The position numbers and the translations under genes are program-made. The notes below the pieces were generated by a model. It saw only the letters and a program-made list of their open reading frames with translations, searched no databases and was not told the DNA's origin. Positions 50,439-63,568 of a stretch of DNA of 64,000 bases are shown one piece after another. How positions within the stretch are numbered: the first letter of the stretch is position 1; each line of letters opens with the position of its first letter. Source of the stretch: Agrocybe praecox (lineage: Eukaryota > Basidiomycota > Agaricomycetes > Agaricales > Agrocybaceae); assembly GCA_964017145.1 (NCBI GenBank), contig OZ024843.1:3304443-3368442 (forward strand). The letters are read 5' to 3'.

Positions 50439-50899
50439 GAATGTACTTTATTACTATACTATTAAGAAGGCGTATTGCTTGTGATCATCATAGATTATTT
50501 AGTGCGCGGGTACAACCATCCGACGGAGATTAGTATAAGTATGCGAAGGCCTTCCACAACATACATCCATTGTAACTCAAAAGGTTGTTTGCTCTGGAGT
50601 CTGATAACTTGGTATATCGATGCCCAAGTTAGGTGAGCGTTTCGTTTTCGGCTGCAGGCTATATATGCTTCCTTCCCCCGAAAGCCTATTCTAATATCTA
50701 TCTAGGAATACTCCGTTGATGCAGTGTTTAAACAAAGAGCTTATTCTTTGTTGATTCATCAATCCCAAAAGTTTATGTAGACGCGCGTAAGTCATGGGAC
50801 AAAAAGCCTGCACATATATAAGACTCGTAGCACAGGCCTAGTCTTCCCCAAACAAACGTCTTAACTGTCCATCCTCACAAAAAATCACTACTACTTTCA
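50439..50899. other. Promoter region of histone H3 variant A
   Basis: About 460 bases between the IF-3 stop and the histone start. Contains the TATA element listed separately at 50814. A second TATA-like string (CTATATATGC) lies at about 50659. No gene. Confidence 0.5.
50814..50827 (+). promoter_or_regulatory. TATA-containing core promoter element of H3 variant A
   Basis: The 14-base string ATATATAAGACTCG lies 73 bases before the ATG at 50900. The identical 14 bases occur upstream of the other H3 variant gene (62798-62811, minus strand) at 80 bases from its ATG. The TATATAA core fits a TATA box; the shared GACTCG extension is unusual and suggests common descent or shared control. Confidence 0.75.
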
Positions 50900-51620
50900 A
50901 TGGCACGGACTAAAGCAACGGCGAGAAAGTCAACTGGTGAGTGTCCTTTTTTAATTAAAAAAAGTCAAGAGCTAACTCCTTTGCTAGGAAAGGCTCCCAG
51001 AGTGAGACACGGCGATACGCAAAAAGGCTTCAAATCTGCTTCAAATATCGGCAACATGATCGGATATGGTTCTTCGGTTGTGGCCAATGGGAACAAACCA
51101 AAATCTCAATGGGCTGTAAAGTCAACAAGCAAGAAGGATGCTACTTCGACTTCGTGGGTAAGTTGCACTATTATTTGTTGCTCCTTTTTCTATCCCACTG
51201 AAACGTTTGCAAGGAACAAAACGGAAAGGGAAAGTCTACCCAAGGACGCAAACATCGCTTCAGACCCGGGACTGTCGCCCTCCGTGAAATTCGAAAATAC
51301 CAAAAATCGACAGAACTACTTATTCGGAAACTTCCATTCCAAAGGCTCGTACGCGAAATAGCATATGGTCACAATGTACGGGTTCTCAGTATTTCGACCA
51401 CGTTGTCCCGCCTTCTGGCGTTTTTTACTGACTCGACTCCGAATTTTAGACGAACCTCAGATTCAAGACTTCCGCTGTATTGGCACTCCAGGAGGCCGCC
51501 GAGGCGTACATTGTTTCCCTCTTCGAAGACACCAACTTGGCTGCGATTCATGGCAAGCGGGTCACCATACAACCCAAGGACATTGCTTTGGCTCGCAAGT
51601 TGAGGGGCGAATCAAAATAA
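50900..51620 (+). CDS. Divergent histone H3 variant A with extended tail
   Basis: Four exons (50900-50936, 50988-51157, 51214-51375, 51450-51620) encode 179 residues, against about 136 for canonical H3. The first residues [17 protein letters not shown] match H3 with one Gly fewer. Then about 35 extra residues appear ([14 protein letters not shown]...), then an H3-like [11 protein letters not shown] second extra stretch precedes [20 protein letters not shown]. The histone fold is complete: [18 protein letters not shown], then YGHNTNLRF in loop 1, [20 protein letters not shown], and [15 protein letters not shown]. Loop 1 has the canonical H3 length rather than the insertion typical of CENP-A. 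However QEAAEAY is a CENP-A-like substitution. A nucleosomal role is expected; whether it is centromeric is open. The tail insert sits in its own exon. Divergence is spread over the fold without breaks, so the gene looks functional. Confidence 0.9.
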
Positions 51621-52106
51621 ATTCGTGGATTTAAACTCTTTGTGCTTTTATTGTTACATATAGCCTATAGTATTGGAATCATTTATATATTTGATCAAAA
51701 GCTGCTCGATTCAAATTTATCCCCATATGATGTTATTGAGGATTGATTAGAAAATACACCTTCAAGCGAGAAAAAGCGTATCTATAGCAAAAAGCAAAAG
51801 AATGTACAGAGAAATGTACATATATGTCAAGCCCGAGTCATATTTCTATCTCCATCCCAAAATAATCTACCATAATCACCATCCCCGATGCCCCCTGATC
51901 AGAAATTGAAAAAATAGGAATAGCGAACGACCGCAATACCGAAAAAAAGAGTAAGTGCGCTAGTGAATTGCGTGTATGCGACGGTGTTGTACCGATAACA
52001 AAAAGAAAAGAAAGATAGCAGACAAGAAACCAGCAATCCTGAGGGCCCTAGGAAGCCAACATATCAGAAGAAAGATCCCTGAAACCCAAAAGATTGCTGG
52101 AAGTAG
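51621..52106. other. Convergent intergenic region
   Basis: About 490 bases between the stops of H3 variant A and Ssk1. A/T rich, no gene supported. Confidence 0.45.
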
Positions 52107-55100
52107 TCATGAGTCGTTCATTATATCGTTAGGAATGGTTATGACGTTCGCAGAAGGGGCAGAGTCGGACGGATTGAGTACGTGCCCATTTCGTGTTTTT
52201 ATGGATTCCGTACTTGAGGCCCTAGGTATGGTTTGTGAAGGCGAGTTAGAGCGTGGTGTCATATAGGGCGGAGACACAGATCGCGAGTGGAGCTCTGAAG
52301 AATTGGAATCGACCAGAACCTGTGCCTGCGACTGTGGAGAGCCGAGCTTAGGCGTACCTGTATACAATGCAATAGATTAGTAAATACATGTTTTTTATCT
52401 AATAGGGCGAAATTTGACTGGCGCACCATCTGAAAAGATAAACATCAATAAAAGACATTCTGATAGATTCGTGGCAAATTATGATAATGGGACTAACCGA
52501 GATCGTTACCAAAAGGACTTCGCTTTCGCTTGATAGGATGTGGCTCAATGTCTGGACGAATACTCGATGCGGCGCCTATAGAGGTCGTTCGCATGCGCTC
52601 GATCGGATTTGGCACTTGACTCGAAGTGTTTGAAAGATGTGAAAATATGCCAGGAGACGCCGCAGCGGAGAGAGGTGGTGTGTTCATGAAACTTGATGAA
52701 GATCCTGCAGATGCAAGGGCAAGAACTGCAGCGTTTTCTTCCAAAATGCTCGAAGATCGTCGCACTGCGGAAATATTTGCTACTCGATCTTTGGGTACGT
52801 GCAGATTTTCAGCCACACTCCTGGCTTGTGCTTCTTGTCCACTCGTCAGATTCCTAACGCTTTCAGGTCGGATATCGGCCCACATCTGGAGCGCCTTGAT
52901 TGAACCCCATTCTATAATTTTGTTATTGAGCCATAGTAAGGAGACTGGCTTCGTAAGGAAGTCATTGCATCCTGCTGCAAGTGCAGCAACACGATCACTT
53001 TGCAGAGAAGAAGCTGTCAAAGCAACAATGATAACCGAAGAGCGATATGGTGAGTTCAAAGGACGGGCATCCAAATTCGCGGGTGCGGATGGTGTGCTCT
53101 GGTCGTTTGACGAATTCAGGGAAAGAGGAGGATACCCTGCAGTTGCATTGGACTTCTCCAGCCGCCTGATTTCTTTCGTGGCTTGAATACCGTCCATGAC
53201 CGGCATCTGGATATCCATCTATTGAAACAGCACAATTAAGAAATATCCCTAAAATTAATAAGCAAGAAAATAGGACATACAAGGATGAGATGAAATCCAC
53301 CGGTTCGCCATTTCTGCACGGCTTCTTGACCGTTACTGGCTAGCTCGTACTTAATCCTTTTCTTTCGCATGAATGTCGAAAGAATGGTCTGATTGATAGG
53401 ATTGTCTGTTGTACAAGAATAATTCAGATAGAGATACTTTGGTTAAACAAGAAACACATACCATCGACGATAAGTACGCTAATTGGTGGCACAACATTAT
53501 CAGAAGAGGTCAACGTCTTAGCCTTCTTCGAGGACGTCGAGGATGATATTTCTTTAGTATCATTCCGCTTGGGTTGCCGTCGAGTTGGCGTTGCGCTGCC
53601 TTCCTTAGTGGGCGAAGAAAGTTTGCGCATATCGTCGCTAGCTCGTCGGGGGACTGGCGACAGTATACTAGACGCAAGAGACGGCTGTTCGTGTTTATCA
53701 TCCATTGGACCGACAAATGATACTTTGGCTGAGGATGGCAAACTTTGAGGCGGTCGCACCGCCTGCGGGCTTCCGTGTTCACTCACTGTTTGTTCGTGCA
53801 GCGTTGAGAAAGTAACTTCATCTTTCTTACCATTGGATGGCGCACGAAGCAAGGATCCTCTCCTCGGGATTGGAATAGTCAGGTGACCTCGATCCCTTTC
53901 CATCGATTGACTGGAAGGATTCCTACTAGGATTTTTACTTCGAGGATGGAAATAAATCCCTGCAGTTTGTCCATCAGGACTTTGGATGACAAGGCCTGAC
54001 GATGGCGATGTTCCTAATTTCTCTGCAGCAGCTGAGAAATACTCCACATTATCTGGAAATGTTAGAGGTGAAGGAGGCATCACCGACGACATGTTGTTTG
54101 TATGTTCGTTAGACCGTGTCGAACGATCAGAATTACTTCGATTTCCAGAAGGCCTATTCGAGCTTTTCGCGGAAGATGATTGTGCCACGAAAGAAGAGTT
54201 CGTTTCGCTGGTAATTCCTTGGCTTCCATAGCTTCCATATTCGGTACTGGGCGTTGGGAAGAATCCCGACAAAGTAGACATTCCAGGACTGAGTGGAGAC
54301 GTAGCGATTGGGATAAACCAAGGATCGACAACGGGTTTTGTGACAGCAGTATGGAGGGCCGTCAAGAACCGCCGTGGACCAGCAGGTTTGGGAATAATCA
54401 TCACGTCGGGCAAAGGGGTTGCCGTGGTTGTATAGGAAACCATAAGAGACTGCATAGTGTCTCTCACCATCTTGTAGTTAGACAGACTAGTAAAATGCAT
54501 GATAACGACGGGCGGTGGTCGGATACCATTCATTCCTGCAAGGCGAGCCATATGTGGTGATGATCTTGGTCTATGACTGGATGATAAAGATGGCCGCTTC
54601 TTTGAGTGCGCCATCAGTGAGGCTTGATTATCAAACCTCGACGCTTGTAATCGTTCCTTGAGAATTTCGACATCGTCATCAATGAAGATGAAATCAGGAT
54701 ATGACGGCAGAGCAAGTCTGGGTTCAGTCTTGGTCTTCTCCTTAGGTGACGATGGTTCCTCTGAAAAGGTTGGTAATACAGGAACATAAGGGGCACTCCG
54801 GACTTCATCTTGCAACAAAGTCGTGTTGTCTGTTAGACCATCTGCATGACCATCAGGTGAAATGTGGTTGACATCCATACCCCAGGCTGTCAAATAACTA
54901 GTTAAATGCTGGGCGAAAGAACCTTTTGCACTGGCATATAAGGCTACTTTCTTTCCCTTCAGAGTTTCTCCAAACGAAGAAAGTTGCTCCAGAGTTGGCT
55001 CCGTGTTGGCTTCTTCTTGCATCTCAATAAACGCTGGAGCTGCTTGTAGAGGTACAGGTACTCGGTCTAGAACCATTTCCAGGTCACATGTACGGCCGTT

Positions 55101-56611
55101 TGTGAATGTACTGGGTGGTGGAAGATCCGAGACTAGTTTACCTCCAATGTGTGCAAGGATACGTCGTAGGAGGAGGGTGGAAAACAACGGCATGGGTCTT
55201 ACCTCAGTGGCCGCGCCGTCCATAGGCTGATCTGCATCATGTTGTGTTTCCGAGGAAGCATACTTATGGGAAATTCGTATTTTGATTTGAATGGGCCCAT
55301 TAGATTCCAAAGGCGCAGCACTCATCATGTCGTCCACTGGCGGAGACTCTACGTGCATCGGTGAGCCTAAAGAGCTTGATACGGGTCCTACTAAAAGGCC
55401 AAGTTCGATTGAATCTCCTCGTTCAGACGTATTTAACACTTGACGGATGATCTATAAAGAACGGTCAAGGACAGGCGGGAACCATAGTAAAAAAATGGCG
55501 TACATGTGATAAAGCAAAAGATATACCGCTTTCATCTCCGGAAACATAGACGTGCTTCAAGCCCACATCACCGTGATAGAGTACCAAATCCACGCCAACC
55601 TGTGCAGCCGCACCGCTCAATGCATCCCCAACACACTGCAACATCTCACCGATGTCAAATTCGTTATGCTGGGCACGATTTGATATTGTATTGGTGTCTT
55701 CTGTTGGAGGTCCGCATCCAGGGGAGCGATTGACGGTCTGTTCGCAGAACGCAGACATATTGGCCGATAGATAATTGATGTTTTTCATGGCAGTAAACAC
55801 AGCGGACATGGACGAGGTTGGAACAGACAAAGCGCATGCAGAGAACTGCTCTTTGGCGGGATCCAATACTTGGGGAGGCGATATTTGTAGCATAGTTTGC
55901 ACTATCAACTGGATAGAATCGGCCAATTCCACCGAAACTTCGCGAATTTGGTTGACCTGGGAATGCACAACACCTGGCGACAAAGGAACGGGAGGTAAAA
56001 GATGAGAGAATTTATGAGGATTCTGCAGTTGGCTGAGCTGTGAAGGAAGCGGCATTGAGAGGGCTCTGGAAAAGACGGGGACAGGTTTTTCTGAGAACGT
56101 TTTCAAGCCAGTTCGTGAGCCTGAGAGGCTTTGGGTAGGAGATGTCGATGAGTTGCTGTGGTTTGCTGTATGATAAGCAGCTGAATCATCGTCGTCTGAG
56201 TCCCCGTCTGACATGTGTTGTTCCCCTTCAGACCAAGTGAGCATGACGGAAGATTCTTTGGGCGTCTGTGTAGTTTCCATGCCTGAATTTCTCCGGGAGG
56301 ATGATGTTGCATAAGATACAGTGAATTTGTTGGCCTGTGGGGATTCCAAAGGGGAATTGGCTTGTATAATGCAGTCGCCTTCTGGGGTCATACGAACAGT
56401 CGGTAGGTTGGGAATATCCATGAGTATTTCGACCGTGTCCTCCTGGACTCCTGGTGGCTCAAACCTCCCAGCCGCGACAGGTATTCGTAGAAAGATTGGT
56501 GGTTGCGAGCACTGGACGACGACGAGCTGTGGAGAAGAATATGTGCCTAATGTCGTAATCAGGATGGGTATTATAAAGGCGGAGATTCCCCTGTACAGAT
56601 CGGGTCTCCAT
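52107..56611 (-). CDS. SSK1: Response regulator Ssk1 (HOG pathway)
   Basis: Receiver protein that passes the phosphorelay signal from Ypd1 to the Ssk2-type MAPKKK in osmotic stress signalling. The receiver domain lies at about 53490-52870: ISVLIVDDNPINQTILSTFM, with the acidic pair, then LMDIQMPVMDGIQATKEIRR with the phospho-acceptor Asp, VALTASS and FLTKPVS with the conserved Lys. An insert of about 40 residues separates the third and fourth strands. After it, KIIEWGSIKALQMWADIRPE is the Ssk1/Mcs4 signature. The N-terminal 900 or so residues are long and largely disordered, with a region like a degenerate kinase domain (VGDALSGAAAQVGVDLVLYH). The start at 56611 gives a 15-base first exon, METRS, which splices in phase to LVVVQCSQPPIFLRIPV. 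That choice rests on splice logic. The C-terminus depends on which of two acceptors is used after the intron starting near 52494. The longer form ends IPNDIMNDS at 52107. Confidence 0.9.
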
Positions 56612-56806
56612 ATCAAACCATCACAAATACAAATTCATTTTAAGGCAGTGAAATTCATAGTGTCGATTTATATTGCAGTCCAGACGGTTTCAATTTGTTA
56701 TATACATAATTAAAAGACTGCATTCCTCAACAGAACTAGCAGAAAATAATACTTCGTGCGCAGGCAGGACATCCCCATTCCAAAATATATCCCATACAAC
56801 CCTGCG
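56612..56806. other. Short spacer between Ssk1 and Ars2 genes
   Basis: 195 bases separate the 3' end of the upstream minus-strand gene from the Ssk1 start, so the Ssk1 promoter must overlap the Ars2 3' UTR. No motif stands out. Confidence 0.5.
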
Positions 56807-59800
56807 TTAATACATCAACTCGACGTCTCCCTGTTAGGACATCGTCAGCTTCGCCAGAGAAATAGCGTAAGATCATACTAACCTCAGCAACAAGATCCAT
56901 ATCGTGGTAGCTGACTCGTTTCCCCCCTGCCGCCCGAGGATCTTCTTTAGCATCAGGGGGTGGTGGCGGCGGTGGGCCACTGGACTGGTTGTTGGTATTC
57001 CTGTTATTCCTTCTGCCCATGTTGGAGTTTCCGCTCACAAGAGCCGTATCCAGTGCTGCGGGCGTAGGCTTAGGCGGGAGACCTGCACCTGCAGGAATAA
57101 CAGAGTTTTCGGGGGCGAAACCACTGATACGATCACTCAGTCTTCTGCCTGCAGGTCCATCGTCTCGCCGGCCAGAAGGGAAGCTTCCAATTGGGTAAGG
57201 TGGAAGTGGAGACTCCCATTGGCCAGCGTAATAAGGAGGATAACCAGCTGGTGGATACGGTCCATTGGCGCCGTAATAGGGGGGCCCACGTCCAAAATCA
57301 CCTCCTTGATAAGGAACAGGAGCTTGGATACCGTATGCTTGCGGAGGGGGCTGCTGACTGCTGTTACCAACTGCTACAGGCGGATGCGCAAAAGGTTGGA
57401 TTCGATGAGGATCTAGAGCAAAATTGTTGAAGTATGGAAGCTGGATATTGAAAAATAAGTTTAGTCTACGGCAGAATATTCAACAATTGCTTACATCTTC
57501 AAGTGACTTGACTAGTTCCGGGTGCTTGTTTGCGATATGCTTCTCCACAAACGCAGTAGCCTTGAAGAGTTTCTGACAAGTCTTACACCTGAACTTGCCT
57601 TCATCCTCCTGTTTGAGGAACGGCTCGACAGCTTTGCTAAGCTCCCTGGAAAAAGACAAAAATATTTAACTACAGTATACTGATTCAGGGAGCAAACGCC
57701 TTACTCTTCGTAACTTTTGCCACCGTAGGCACGAGGATCAACACCATCATGATTGATAAGCAGAGCGATCTTCGAGTCTAACCACTCAAGCCATCTCTCG
57801 TCTGTAATAATAAACTTAAATAAGCAAAAGGCTACAAATGCAAAATAAATCACAGACCATTCCGCTTCCAGTCCCTAGTGTCCTTCGACTTCCCGTTCTC
57901 TTTCGGTTTAGTTTTGTCATCAGCTGCAGTATCAGCAGGAACATCTTTATATTCCTCCTTAGATTTTCTTTCCTTCTCGGCTTCTGCAGCCTTCAATTCA
58001 TCAAGAAGAATCTTTGATAGAGGCTTTCTATCGTGTTTGACACATTTGCGCTGTAGCTCTTCAATGTGATCGGTTACGACAGCGCAATAATAGCACGTGT
58101 GGAATGCAGCTCGCAAATACGCAAGATACAAGTCGAGTGCTACAACGACCTGAGGAGAAATGTAAGTCAACCAACTTCAAGAAGCCAAAGCAAGAGAGAT
58201 ATTTACCCTCTTCTCCTCATACGCCTTCTCGTCATTCACGTCTACGAGACCCTGGTCACGCATATCAGCCATGACTTTCTCGATTCTTCTCTCTACAGCT
58301 TCGCTACCCGATTCCTTGGGCTCCTCTTCCTCATCTTCAAGCGAATTCATGGGCGAATCTTCGCCCTCGCCTGTCTTTTCGGAGTCATTCTCGTCGTTGC
58401 CTTTCTTTACCAGGTCCGCTGTTTTGGTAGCACGCAATTTAGCAGCTTGCTCCTCTAGAATCAAAGCGAGTTTTTTGGCATTCTCCAAGTCCATTTCAAG
58501 CCTATCAGGTTTACTAGCCACTTCGGGTGCATATCTCACTTTGCCCGTAAATGGGCGCACATTATGAGTAACATGCAATTTAAAGCCTTCAATCTGATAA
58601 AGATGTTCAATATTGTATTGAGATTAGGGCATAAGAGTGTGGAAGTACCTTCTTCTCTGACAGTTCAGACATCGTTGAACTCATGTCCGCGTCATCGGTA
58701 AACCTCAACCAACCCGCGCGATAATAATTGCGCTTTTGAAGAGGGTCACCGAGTGCTAGATAAACAAACCCAGGCATTTTGGAACAACTCTGCGGAAGAA
58801 GTGAATATGTTTGTCAAGATTCGTACTCGACAATGCATACCTCTTCCAATTTGACACGTCCAATGTCTGGTGGTATAGTCCTGATCATAACCTGATTGCC
58901 TTCGGTCGGAACAGAGATCTCTTCAAGACGTGCGCCGCGCTTGGTATCAGCAGAATACTTCCCATTAGTATCAGGACGGTTGGCATCGTGATCCCCGGTG
59001 TCCTCATCTACATCGACATTAAACTGCATGTCCTCATCAACAGTCGTGTTGGCTTTGGTATCTGTAGTATTACTGTCTGCCATAGCATCGCCATTCCCAT
59101 TTTCCTTTACCGGAGAAACGGGTTCGGCGTCTGGTTCATGTAGGTCTGGGTCGAATTTGCCTGATTCGAGATCCTGAAGGAAAGTATTCAAACGACCTTT
59201 CCATCCCTCTTTTCTCACGCGTGTGCGCAAATTCTCGAATTCTGGTGCTGGGTCATACTTTTCCGCAAACCAAGGTGATTTCCTATGATGTTCAAACATC
59301 GTTTGAAGCTACAATACGTAATATTTCAGTCATGAATTCCGACAACCCAACGAATAGAACACAAAGATGATTGTAAAGATACAAGAATAGCATACACATG
59401 GCATGGATTCAACAAAAGGAAAAGAGATGACTAACCTGTGTTGCAGCAAATTCTTTCTTATATTTTTCCCATCGACTTTTGATACCATTTCGGGGTTTGG
59501 AGCCATCACCAGCCTCTTGTTCAGCAGCCTTGTCAGCATTGTCTTCTTCCGTAGCTTGAGCAGAGTAGAAGTATCGGAACCATTCGGCATACTGTTTCAA
59601 AGAGGCAGGATAGTCAAATGTGTGTGGGTCGGGAGGTGCTCGTCTTGAGGGGGGGAAAGGCGCATGTCGCCGGGGTGACGTGTAGCCATGTCGGGAATGA
59701 GCATCTAGAAGTAAAAGTAAAGTTCAACGGTATTCCGTAAGATATATGAAGTTATGCGCCAAACCATAATCATCATTGTACCGTGGCCTTGGGTCGTAAC

Positions 59801-60126
59801 GTTCCCTGTCGTAGGGAGACATCGATCTTCTGCGTTTCCTGCCAGCTAAACAAACATAAACGTCATTACGAGTCCAAAACACGTGTGGAAAATATAGCAC
59901 TACCTTCATCGAGTGGAGGACTTCTACTCCGCCGTCTCCCGTAGTCATATGGAGGTCGGTCTCTTTCATGAGCCCATCTATCCCTATCATAGCCATCCCA
60001 TTCTGGTCTGTATGATTCTGAATAACTCTCAGAGTATGGAGCTCTGCTAGAATATCCTCCACGTGAAGGTGAGCGAGAGCGAGATCGACGCGGCGGAGGG
60101 GGATACGACGAAGACCAAGAAGACAT
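56807..60126 (-). CDS. Ars2/SERRATE RNA effector protein
   Basis: Nuclear partner of the cap-binding complex that links nascent RNA to processing or decay. The start at 60126 gives an Arg/Ser-rich N-terminus (MSSWSSSYPPPPRRSRSRSP). The SERRATE/Ars2 N-terminal domain follows (DPHTFDYPASLKQYAEWFRY, SRWEKYKKEFAATQ). Then come MFEHHRKSPWFAEKYDPAPE, a central RRM-like region (VMIRTIPPDIGRVKLE, KRNYYRAGWLRFTDDADM) and an acidic stretch. The DUF3546-like/helical part has FHTCYYCAVVTDHIEELQRK and WLEWLDSKIALLINHDGVDP. The C2H2 finger (GKFRCKTCQKLFKATAFVEK, HIANKH) is intact. The C-terminal tail is Pro/Gly-rich and ends DMDLVAE-GDVELMY at 56807, the short motif that in the family meets the cap-binding complex or its partners. 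About ten introns, all in phase where checked. In fission yeast the orthologue is Pir2. Confidence 0.93.
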
Positions 60127-60448
60127 CTTTTATGGAGCAAAAGAACTGAGAAATAGAAAGAGAAAGCGAACATAACGACGGCTGATCAGAGCCTGCGAGA
60201 GAGAGGTCGAGCATAGTGAAGAACCGACCTCTTGGATCACGAAAACAGCGGTTGTCAGTTGGCTACGACGGTGAGCTCAACGCTGCTTTGACACGCTCAA
60301 CAGTGTTTCGCGATGAGCTCGTAATTAACAGCAGCCAGCTCTCTCATGCGTAATTGAAGCGGAGTCCAAATCCAGGCCCGTGCGTGATATTGGTCCGACA
60401 CAATCAAATTATCAATTGTTCCATACAACTACATAATCTGATTAGTTT
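60127..60448. other. Spacer between Esf2 and Ars2 genes
   Basis: 322 bases holding the Ars2 promoter and the Esf2 3' UTR. No gene and no distinct element seen. Confidence 0.5.
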
Positions 60449-61440
60449 TCAGAATATATTCGTTAAAACACTATCTAATGATACCCCTTCATTTCCTTCC
60501 TTTTTCTTTTTCCTTGGTGCATCATTTTCTCCATCAAGCGTCCTCTTCTTGGGTTGAGGATTGGGCTTGAATTCAAATTCTTCCCCATTCTCCTTCTTTT
60601 TAGCCGCTCGTTTATCCAAGACACGAGCAAGTTCAACATTCTTCAGGTATTCTTGCTGCTCGGTCTTGGATTGTGACAGCTCAACGCGTAACTTAGCTGT
60701 ATGTACCGCCGCTTCATATGCTAGCAAGATAGATAAGAAATAAACTCGAAAAGACAATAACAATTTGTACTCACCAACTTGCTCCGTTAGCATATTCCAT
60801 TTGAATCTCGGCAAGTACTTCATTGTCCAGATATCATCTCGCCACCTTGTACCTTTCTTTCCGCCAATCGGCTGAGCGTTAAGCATCGCTGCAACACTAC
60901 GCGCAACCTTTTTGTCTTTGAATTCGACCCAGCCTTCTGTATAGTGTACTTTTTTTGTTGAAGTGAACTTCTTTCTGAGATACGCTCGTTTTGCATCTGT
61001 TGATCGCGTCTAAGATATATCATAATCTTTCAGGGATAGAGTGACTGACCTTCTTGTTGAAGATAAACTCGTCCTACAGTACCGTACGCGCTCATGAGGT
61101 GTCGAACTTTCGCGGGACGCATACCAGGAGGAATACGCGAGACATAGACAACCCCTGCCCGGTCCTGAGCTGCCTTGAAAGCAGCCAACGCCTCAGGCGT
61201 TAAAGGTTTTAGAGTTTTATCTCCGATGAATCCTCCTCGATCCATGCCTTTAACGAATCCTTCATCATGGTCACTGTCAGACCCTTCCTCTTCTTCATCC
61301 CCGTCCTCTTCCTCTTCGCTGCGCTGCGAGGTTTCCTTCAATTCTGATTCCTCTTCTTGCAGTCGGGATGGTCCTGCTTCGGGTTGGGTAGATACAGCGT
61401 TCGTTGAAAATTTCGGTTTGCTAATGATTTTCTCTGCCAT
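60449..61440 (-). CDS. ESF2: Pre-rRNA processing protein Esf2/ABT1
   Basis: Nucleolar RRM protein of the SSU processome that assists U3-dependent cleavage of pre-rRNA and stimulates the helicase Dbp8. The start at 61440 gives [20 protein letters not shown], followed by an acidic Glu/Asp/Ser run. The RRM opens [20 protein letters not shown] and [15 protein letters not shown]. After an intron it continues [40 protein letters not shown] and [20 protein letters not shown]. These are hallmark Esf2/ABT1 segments. A C-terminal coiled coil ([20 protein letters not shown]) and basic tail end in [10 protein letters not shown] at 60449. About 290 residues with four or so introns. Confidence 0.93.
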
Positions 61441-62055
61441 GATGGCTAGTCTGGCGACTTGAATTATATCCAAATGGTTTACCAGCTATGAAGAAAGTCA
61501 CAAACACTTGCCCAATAATTTCTAATGCTTCTGCGCAACAAACACAAACAGGGGACATTGTTTACCTATTTTTAGCTATTCATAGTATTTATAAATAGTA
61601 TCAGTACCAGGTGTCTAGGGACATAACGGGTTCAAAACAAGTTACAGCACTGCTTGGCAAATGATTGTGTTTTTGACGTGATCCTTCTACTAAGTTCACT
61701 GCTCTGGTGCGTAAGAAATTCAAACATGACTTTCGTTGGTAAGAAATTTTATATTTGAATAATTGCTATATCCCATATGATAACAGTTATCTGAGCCTTA
61801 GTACTATGATGAGCTTGGGAGCAGTTCGCTGCAGTTGTAGGGGGCTCAGTTTGGGCTCAGTCCACAAAAAGTATGTGCCTGCTTAAATAGCCATGTTCGT
61901 GTTACTTGCCATGGCAGCCTATAACATAACATTTTGAAAGACTCACAATGACAATGTCAACAAAAAAAATGTATGGGCTGTTTGCTTGAAGGATAATCAT
62001 GATGACCACAGTACTTAGACTTTACAGTAATAAATGAATCATAAGTGGTGCTTAC
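61441..62055. other. Intergenic region
   Basis: About 615 bases between Esf2 and H3 variant B, both on the minus strand. It holds the Esf2 promoter and the histone 3' UTR. A/T rich; no gene seen. Confidence 0.45.
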
Positions 62056-62718
62056 TTATATGCGAAGTCCTCCTCTCAAACGGCGAGCAAGGGCCATGTC
62101 CCTGGGCATTATTGTCACTCTTTTTGCATGGATTGCTGAAAAGTTCACGTCTTCGAACAACGAGACCAGGTACGCCTCCGACGCTTCTTGGAGCGCCATG
62201 ATAGCAGCTGACTGGAACCTAATTCCAGACTTGGTAATAAATCGGATTTGAACATGAAGCTCAGAAATCAATAATCATAAAACATTAGTACTTACCTTGT
62301 AGTCTTGTGCTATTTCACGGACAAGCCTCTGGAATGGGAGCTTACGGATGAGCAAATCCGTTGTATTCTGGTAATGACGTATTTCACGCAGAGCTGCAGT
62401 GCCCGGACGAAAGCGATGGGGCTTCTCGACCCCTCCGTAAGTTTTATTGCCCTACCAAGAAAGAATTAAGATTAACACAAGGTCCTTATAAAATTATTTA
62501 AAGAGGAATAGATTGAGTCACCGTAGTTTTCAGCGCCATTTGTTTGTCGTGTCTTCCTGCTGCTGTTTTATAACCATATTGACCATCAAGGCGGACGATA
62601 TGTTTCCAATGTACCTTTCCTGCAACAAATATAAGGATAACGAAATGATACGGTAACATACTAAACATTTTGGTATACCTCCGGTGGACTTGCGCGCCGA
62701 CTGCTTAGTACGCGCCAT
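62056..62718 (-). CDS. Divergent histone H3 variant B with extended tail
   Basis: Four exons (62718-62679, 62619-62522, 62451-62296, 62228-62056) encode 155 residues. The tail starts [15 protein letters not shown], so K4, K9, S10 and K14 equivalents are kept. About 20 extra residues follow ([20 protein letters not shown]), then [11 protein letters not shown], which aligns with the KQLATK region of H3. Next come [12 protein letters not shown] and [20 protein letters not shown]. The fold continues [35 protein letters not shown], and [20 protein letters not shown]. It is closer to canonical H3 in the fold than variant A, but with many changes at normally invariant sites. Intron 1 falls at the same codon as in variant A, just before Lys14. 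The ARKS motif around K27 is lost. It looks functional. A canonical H3 gene is not in this window. Confidence 0.92.
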
Positions 62719-63568
62719 TGTATGTGTGCAGACTGTGGTAGATTATTGACTTTGGTGGGTATTAATTGAAGGAATATTTTCTTCAGAGCTCGATATGCGA
62801 GTCTTATATATTCAACGTCGAAGTCTTCTAGGGAGCTCGGAAATTTCCATGGCTTCTCTTTTGCTGCAATCACCTTCGTGAGGTTGAAGTCGAGTCATGA
62901 CTCCGTTAGACGCGTTGTATTACACAGCCCTGGACCTACAGTTTCCGTAGATATACGGGGTTCAAAATCCAAACGTATGGCCCCAAGAGCCAGAACCGGG
63001 ATATCTGCAATGAATGACCTGAACTGTGGACATGCAAATGCCGGATTTTCTTCCGTACCTCTCCCCAATCGGTGCTCCAGACAACCTAATGAGCTGTCAA
63101 TAATTATTGGCGTTGCTTATATCCTTACGTTCGTTATCACGCAACATCACCCAGATAAAGCTAGATGGGTGCCGGGAAACTGCGAATCCCGGTTGGGGCA
63201 TAATTATTTTTAAGCGCACTGGGCAAGTTTATATGGAGATGACGATGTCCGAGGGCCGTTATGTTTTGCATTCCAGAATTTGTGTAGGTAGTAGCAGCTG
63301 TAACTTTTCGAAAGTTTCAGAACCTATCTGTATTCGCAGAACGAGTAGCAAGCGCAGTTTATTGACGAGAGATTCCCCGGGAGATATAAGGGTCAACGAA
63401 GCCCTGAACTGTACACGAACATTGAACGCCGTTAGAATCTGGGAAATGCATGAATAACCTCGGTACACGTGGGAAGAGTATCGTCATTCGGGCGGAGACC
63501 ATAAAAGTTGACTAGTGACTTGGAATTTCCGCGACTTCTATCAGTTTCCCTCAGGTTCGTCTGTAATA
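62719..63568. other. Divergent intergenic region of H3 variant B and the last gene
   Basis: About 850 bases between outward-facing starts. Apart from the TATA element at 62798 no feature is clear. Open frames at 62878-63213 and 63107-63457 overlap one another and have no family resemblance. Confidence 0.45.
62798..62811 (-). promoter_or_regulatory. TATA-containing core promoter element of H3 variant B
   Basis: On the minus strand this reads ATATATAAGACTCG, identical over 14 bases to the element upstream of H3 variant A. Its 3' end lies 80 bases from the ATG, against 73 in variant A. Confidence 0.75.

Follow-up and report, generated by a model that had tools for sequence, protein, structure and literature searches.

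How has the tail of histone H3, among the least variable sequences of eukaryotes, become lengthened in two neighbouring genes of the mushroom Agrocybe praecox, and are the products still working histones? The window analysed here (64,000 nt, positions 3,304,443 to 3,368,442 of contig OZ024843.1, which measures 4.3 Mb in a genome of 59.2 Mb) carries two divergent H3 genes, A and B, which lie ∼11 kb apart in convergent orientation. A sequence-only reading had taken them for members of one lineage-specific H3 subfamily sharing a homologous insert in the tail. We consider it rather probable that A and B are working, divergent H3 paralogues whose tail exon has grown and been rewritten, and that they serve as replacement H3s. 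A single insert family made of A and B is not shown.

Both genes are intact, as the sequence-only reading had it. Each has four exons (Table 1) with open reading frames, and the six introns (51–74 nt) are all bounded by GT-AG. The core histone family PF00125 (cut-off 26.4 bits) is matched by A with 139 bits (E-value 1.2e-40) and by B with 133.6 bits (E-value 5.5e-39). Relative to a canonical paralogue of the same layout, exon 2, the tail exon, is longer by 38 codons in A and by 14 codons in B, and exon 3 by four and two codons, respectively; the extra length reported earlier is thus there, but inserts of ∼35 and ∼20 residues have to be replaced by these values. In exon 2 of B there is no in-frame GT-AG pair of 36 nt or more, and an internal intron is rejected. 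Exon 2 of A has nine in-frame GT-AG pairs, the best donor scoring 3.6 (the 14 modelled donors score 3.4–8.4); none of the nine candidate introns has a branch-site match and none restores a canonical tail. An intron hidden in exon 2 of A is unlikely. The possibility of a pseudogene with a broken frame was considered for both genes and rejected, the models being intact.

The genome has at least eight H3 genes starting with ARTK, as found by a protein search (16 candidates scored, 20 matches, exon by exon) together with a start pattern. They include four canonical copies, with core proteins identical over 90 residues, and two further variants, designated C and D. Three introns interrupt the canonical gene C1:1687842: one of phase 1 follows codon 13, and two of phase 0 lie where the tail exon ends and between K79 and T80. 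All three positions are present in A, B and C within one codon; intron 1, in phase 1 in both window genes, follows codon 12 in A and codon 13 in B, and in A and C it comes one codon earlier than in C1:1687842. That A and B share an intron position, as claimed earlier, therefore holds within one codon, but the intron is an ordinary, ancestral one of canonical H3. These positions indicate that A and B go back to a duplicated H3 gene in which three introns were arranged in the ordinary way. Canonical H3 of the same genome is like A and B in its fold and ARTK start as well, and unlike them in its tail exon of 56 nt, which measures 170 nt in A, 98 nt in B and 113 nt in C. Variant D agrees with the canonical gene C1:4534411 in all five introns and in the 25 nt of its second exon; its matching tail exon has 71 nt versus 53 nt. 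The change of K9 to M in D (codon AAA to ATG) lies in this 25-nt exon; D also has S at K56 and one additional codon near loop 1.

Measured from K14 to H39, the tail has 68 residues in A, 42 in B, 44 in C and 31 in D, compared with 25–26 in the canonical copies of this genome and 24 in many other H3s. Both A and B contain the string D-x-Q-x-G-[FY]-K-[ST]-A, as had been noticed, and the inserts had been called homologous. This homology is not borne out: the best local score between the two tails, 27, was matched by 20.7% of 1000 shuffles, and the best ungapped 9-mer was equalled in 39 of 1000 shuffles, so the string alone is weak evidence for similarity of A and B. Each tail does resemble the canonical tail. 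Against three canonical tails, A scored 33–41 (1 to 6 of 1000 shuffles as good) and B scored 38–46 (none of 1000 shuffles as good); a 19-residue stretch of the A tail matches canonical PRKQLASKSAARKTATNAA, and B matches likewise through a 19-residue stretch. Since the motif lies upstream of this match in both genes, there is extra sequence after R17, as the sequence-only reading had it.

What is this extra sequence? The motif fits the pattern Q-x-[AG]-x-K-[ST], as does canonical Q-L-A-S-K-S, and two such blocks are found in each of A and B. Rather than being sequence absent from canonical H3, as had been supposed, the motif is best understood as duplicating the canonical Q19-L-A-T-K23 block. 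When block II was left in place and the remainder of the tail was shuffled, a second block arose by chance in 2.0% of cases for A and 0.2% for B. Two blocks of the looser form Q-x-[AGS]-x-K are present in five of 13 chosen tails (A, B, Flammula, Galerina and P0110), while 0.62 such tails are expected given one inherited block, and five or more were seen in two of 5000 shuffles; these figures are optimistic because the pattern was set after A and B had been seen. The protein of Chiua virens has the block where canonical H3 has it, with QFGLKT immediately following R17-P18, and P0093, from outside the 13 tails, looks by eye like a longer tail duplication. Either block of A and B could be the original copy.

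A homologue search with B (best 120 of 7990 candidates, of which 20 were read, followed by the tails of all fetched proteins of at most 200 amino acids) gave at least six B-like proteins, annotated at their source only as ‘histone H3’ or ‘hypothetical protein’. Among B and these six relatives, S at T6 is present in six of the seven, Y at F78 in all seven and a tail of 40–43 residues in six; counted over the relatives only, the figures are 5/6, 6/6 and 5/6. Thus a tail length matching that of B is seen in five further genera, and there is one short-tailed relative. The sequence GGVKK is kept in six of the seven proteins, B having GGVEK. The tail sequence itself differs between genera, and the changes K36E and K56N occur only in B among the seven. 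With S at T6, Y at F78 and a 42-residue tail, B has the features proposed for a B-type group, which were drawn up with B in view; A, with T at T6, H at F78 and a 68-residue tail, lacks them. We take B to stand for a subfamily that has relatives in the genera Psilocybe, Pholiota, Flammula, Hebeloma, Galerina and Hypholoma. The notion of a lineage-specific H3 subfamily instead of two decays is supported to this extent, and by core constraint (see below), but not for A and B as one insert-bearing subfamily. The presence of similar copies in related mushrooms suggests that A and B are probably working specialised histones and not wreckage.

The proteome search was less fruitful for A. The search with A alone listed 120 matches, all of at least 183 amino acids, and a search with a nine-row family alignment listed 120, all of at least 264 amino acids; both were swamped by entries that are mostly proteins seemingly holding H3 twice, and hence scoring double, and are uninformative on orthologues of A or C. 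Entries P0102, P0106 and other long-tailed ones look by eye like retained introns and were left uncounted. Sixty of 172 matches of a search in PDB were listed, all of them named as ordinary H3 types. An AlphaFold model of the Psilocybe protein P0067, made with ten sequences, was too poor to use (mean predicted local distance difference test score 51.5, predicted template modelling score 0.22); it had helices only from residue 63 and a tail without structure.

Two further proteins, P0089 (Chiua virens) and P0091 (Imleria badia), have near-canonical cores and a rewritten segment after R17 (Q-F-G-L-K-T and Q-Y-G-R-K). Unlike B, they have tails of only 32 and 30 residues and a core that retains IQPKD and F78. 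Both species belong to the order Boletales. Their tails are probably separate events, which suggests that rewriting of the H3 tail arose more than once in mushroom-forming fungi. These proteins also bear on a different explanation, in which the copies are kept for dosage, only the fold and the K4–K14 end matter, and the long tail drifts without a specific role. Such relaxed duplicates, possible but doubtful in our judgement, would account for tails that differ strongly among genera over a conserved core, for the divergent tails of P0089 and P0091 on otherwise near-canonical cores, and for the short tail in Hypholoma. They would not account for the narrow tail length in six of the seven B-type proteins, the GGVKK kept in as many, the recurrence of K23-like blocks above chance or the retention of K9 and K14 in A and B.

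Are A and B each other's closest relatives? The promoters of A and C align over ∼165 bp (score 42, reached by none of 2000 shuffles). The promoters of B and C do not align beyond chance (score 17, 1723 of 2000 shuffles), and the likeness of the A and B promoters is confined to a 14-bp extended TATA box (score 28, 9 of 2000 shuffles). The 13-mer TATATAAGACTCG from this box has exactly two copies in the genome, one per window gene and in gene orientation (one copy in the reversed control); finding a 13-mer twice in 59 Mb is in itself nothing unusual, but the positions of the two copies are telling. The core DNA tree (270 columns) groups A and C (79/93) as well as B and D (83/92); neither pairing is decisive. 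The core trees are nearly unresolved: the protein trees of 98 and 97 columns have one well-supported branch each, and the 270-column DNA tree has none. The protein tree supports none of the groups A+B, A+C and B-type, and rejects none. Variant C has no insert between K14 and K18. C is likelier to be the sister of A, and A more likely belongs with C than in a family with B.

Descent of A and B from one insert-bearing ancestor, with both inserts going back to a single insertion, appears unlikely. The extra sequence is at the same place of the protein, with a similar 9-residue string and two K23-like blocks in both genes; TATATAAGACTCG is found nowhere else in the genome; and a clade of A and B was not rejected by the approximately unbiased (AU) test (P = 0.19 for the core DNA tree, 0.27 for the protein tree). 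Against these stand the A and B tails being no more alike than shuffles, the homology of the A promoter to that of C, a gene without the insert, and the tail of B, which is closer to that of the Psilocybe relative (score 49) than to that of A (27).

The promoters have two more boxes of note. The sequence TATATAAG is located at −85 in A, −92 in B and −82 in C, and ACGCGT is present in the promoters of B, C and D and in none of those of A or the canonical genes (0.22 per kb in the window). The two boxes are weak evidence that transcription is regulated, perhaps in S phase.

The histone fold and the K4 and K9 sites are kept in both genes, as claimed earlier, and so is K14. Both proteins start with ARTK, but of the two glycines ahead of K14 only one is present in A, where Q5 is also replaced by A. 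A also keeps K56, has N at K79 and is without GGVKK. B keeps K79 and has E at K36, in the context YGGVEKPHR, and N at K56; no clear counterpart of K36 is seen in A. Neither protein has the contexts of K27 and K36 (ARKS/ARKT and GGVKKPHR), there being no second ARKS/ARKT, in line with the altered K27 region described before. Residues 84–90 read FKTSAVL in A, FQSAAIM in B and FQSSAVM in the canonical protein, and the choice of chaperone may differ accordingly.

Over the core, 13 of 90 residues are changed in A and 18 of 90 in B relative to the canonical protein. A and one canonical copy differ by 36 synonymous and 13 other changes (non-synonymous divergence dN 0.097, synonymous divergence dS 1.36); B and the same copy by 40 and 18 (dN 0.16, dS saturated and not computable, hence no ratio); A and C, over the 90 core codons, by 35 and 19 (dN 0.156, dS 1.22). 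A dS above 1 or beyond computation, with dN of 0.10–0.17 against canonical H3, indicates old rather than decayed genes. This fits cores that are old and under constraint, less strict than that on canonical H3, as shown for A and likely for B. Accordingly we regard it as very improbable that A and B are pseudogenes on their way out with frames intact by chance or youth. Several otherwise near-invariant H3 sites do differ, with K79N in A and both K36E and K56N in B, yet the frames are open across four exons with GT-AG introns, and B has relatives in other genera.

An origin of A and B as duplicates of the centromeric H3, CENP-A, seems hardly credible. They are divergent H3s with altered tails, and Pfam gave sub-threshold matches to CENP-T (A and B) and CENP-S (B). 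CENP-A is characterised by a loop 1 longer than that of H3 and by a tail start unlike ARTKQTARKS, whereas A and B keep the ARTK start and a core that aligns with the 90 canonical codons with no gap and no insertion in loop 1; a separate CENP-A-like gene is present in the genome (Table 1).

Several points weigh against working paralogues with a partly duplicated tail. The block pattern was defined with A and B already seen, and the 13 tails were hand-picked by the analyst; under the looser form Q-x-[AGS]-x-K the second block arises by chance in 13.7% of cases for A and 2.7% for B; and eight of the 13 tails lack a double block, including four of the seven B-type ones (Psilocybe, Pholiota, Hebeloma and Hypholoma). 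Since the tails are short and of low complexity, homology of block to block is a matter of interpretation. The Hypholoma relative has a tail of 26 residues, not lengthened, and Y at F78, occurring also in variant C, is not exclusive to the B-type. The core tree has no B-type clade, which takes two changes, with one change in 24% of bootstrap trees; monophyly of the B-type was not rejected (AU test, P = 0.484). Comparison with an invariant canonical copy flatters the constraint seen in dN/dS, and B has no dS. Finally, A and B are known here from sequence.

The course of events we propose for A and B as working replacement H3s is as follows. After duplication, the histone fold and the end carrying K4, K9 and K14 would have been held under constraint, while the tail exon beyond K14 lengthened and was rewritten, with the growth coming in part, as the block pattern suggests, from a second block of the Q19-L-A-T-K23 type. 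The proteins would enter nucleosomes as replacement H3s. Such nucleosomes could carry marks at K4, K9 and K14 and acetylation at two K23-like sites. A normal K27 would be missing from them, and likewise a normal K36 (replaced by E in B), K79 (by N in A) or K56 (by N in B). They would not respond to K27 signalling, and only in part to that at K36, K56 and K79, and from this we infer local escape from Polycomb-type, Set2 or Dot1-type marking. The genome has one match to Pre-SET, on C8, one to DOT1 and two to preSET_CXC, suggesting that writers of K9, K79 and K27 probably exist; a search for the chromo-shadow domain gave no match, none in its controls either, and is uninformative.

In a bolder version, which strikes us as quite improbable, four H3s with rewritten tails form a set private to this genome, next to its four canonical copies and a CENP-A, and each of them puts a different portion of the H3 code out of action (no K27/K36 and N79 in A; E36, N56 and the doubled K23 block in B; K8-R9 in C; K9M in D). 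The set would act as a chromatin switch specific to the lineage, in basidia or in dikaryotic growth for instance, and D, as a K9M histone encoded naturally by the genome, would be able to trap the H3K9 methyltransferase. Engineered K9M was reported to trap the H3K9 methyltransferase Clr4 in fission yeast (PMC5030085). Variants C (K9R) and D (K9M) make it directly testable whether any organism uses a K-to-M histone as a normal regulator. More generally, a lengthened segment after K14 combined with an intact K4–K14 end and fold would offer natural experiments in uncoupling K9-type from K27/K36-type marking, and the occurrence of B-type relatives in cultivable mushrooms makes the idea testable.

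A literature search (titles and abstract openings) gave no description of a tail-lengthened H3 in agarics. The variant H3V-CTG of Candida albicans and the CTG clade is a lineage-specific fungal H3 whose tail is changed and for which a role in gene regulation has been measured; unlike A and B, it differs from the canonical protein at three positions only (31, 32 and 80) and has no added tail (PMC6703697). B would follow the replacement logic of animal H3.3: residues 87–90 are AAIM in B, whereas human H3.3 has AAIG there and human H3.2 has SAVM (PMC3380720). SAVM is also found in the canonical H3 copies of this genome. Animal H3.3 is of independent origin and differs from B in tail length and sequence.

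Table 1. Positions of the H3 genes and related features. Positions without a contig name are those of the window; the window lies on contig C4.
Feature	Position or entry	Strand	Details
Gene A	50900-51620	+	4 exons, 179 aa
Gene A exon 1	50900..50936	+	12 codons + 1 nt
Gene A exon 2, tail exon	50988..51157	+	170 nt vs 56 nt in canonical paralogue
Gene A exon 3	51214..51375	+	tail end and start of histone fold
Gene A exon 4	51450..51620	+	remaining histone fold and stop
Gene A motif D-x-Q-x-G-[FY]-K-[ST]-A	51014..51040	+	K23-like block I QKGFKS, 51020-51037
Gene A K23-like block II (QWAVKS)	51107..51124	+	within stretch aligning to canonical PRKQLASKSAARKTATNAA
Gene A promoter stretch homologous to variant C promoter	50632..50796	+	offsets 132-297 of the 400 bases before ATG
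Gene A extended TATA element TATATAAGACTCG	50815..50827 (C4:3355257-3355269)	+	
Gene B	62056-62718	-	4 exons, 155 aa
Gene B exon 1	62679..62718	-	13 codons + 1 nt
Gene B exon 2, tail exon	62522..62619	-	98 nt vs 56 nt in canonical paralogue
Gene B exon 3	62296..62451	-	tail end (GGVEKPHR) and start of histone fold
Gene B exon 4	62056..62229	-	remaining histone fold and stop
Gene B motif D-x-Q-x-G-[FY]-K-[ST]-A	62561..62587	-	K23-like block I QYGYKT, 62564-62581
Gene B K23-like block II (QMALKT)	62525..62542	-	aligns to canonical QLASKS
Gene B extended TATA element TATATAAGACTCG	62798..62810 (C4:3367240-3367252)	-	
Canonical H3 genes	C13:2627595, C13:2440943, C1:1687842, C1:4534411		protein search and start pattern
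Variant C	C11:298587-299261		157 aa; ARTKSHAKRSTGGK, R8-K9 replaced by K8-R9
Variant D	C12:46475-47227	-	144 aa; ARTKHVARMTTGGKAPR, K9 to M
CENP-A-like gene	C4:2427340-2427763		separate from A and B
B-like proteins (at least 6)	P0067 Psilocybe cubensis, P0072 Pholiota conissans, P0074 Flammula alnicola		homologue search with B
B-like proteins, continued	P0080 Hebeloma cylindrosporum, P0112 Hypholoma sublateritium, P0114 Galerina marginata		homologue search with B

The MARTK start pattern gave 71 matches genome-wide, compared with 20 in the reversed control. The H3 genes account for eight of the 71 and a repeated 15-mer, ATGGCCCGGACAAAA, for 25; 11 stretches were read, six of them with ATGGCCCGGACAAAA, and none of the 11 continues as an H3 tail. 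The 25 copies of ATGGCCCGGACAAAA are located on C2 between 3.1 and 3.9 Mb (12 copies) and on C3, C9, C11, C12, C13, C27, C195 and C311. They look like a dispersed repeat, the six copies read including no histone, and the clustering on C2 could indicate a region rich in repeats.

Directly downstream of A there is a gene with a response-regulator receiver domain (52496-53218, minus strand; PF00072, E-value 8.7e-10). Between A and B lies a gene of the SERRATE/ARS2 type (57483-59308, minus strand; PF12066, E-value 2.5e-9; PF04959, E-value 5.9e-8). In animals ARS2 acts in the maturation of histone mRNA, and the position of an ARS2-type gene beside H3 variants may or may not be due to chance.

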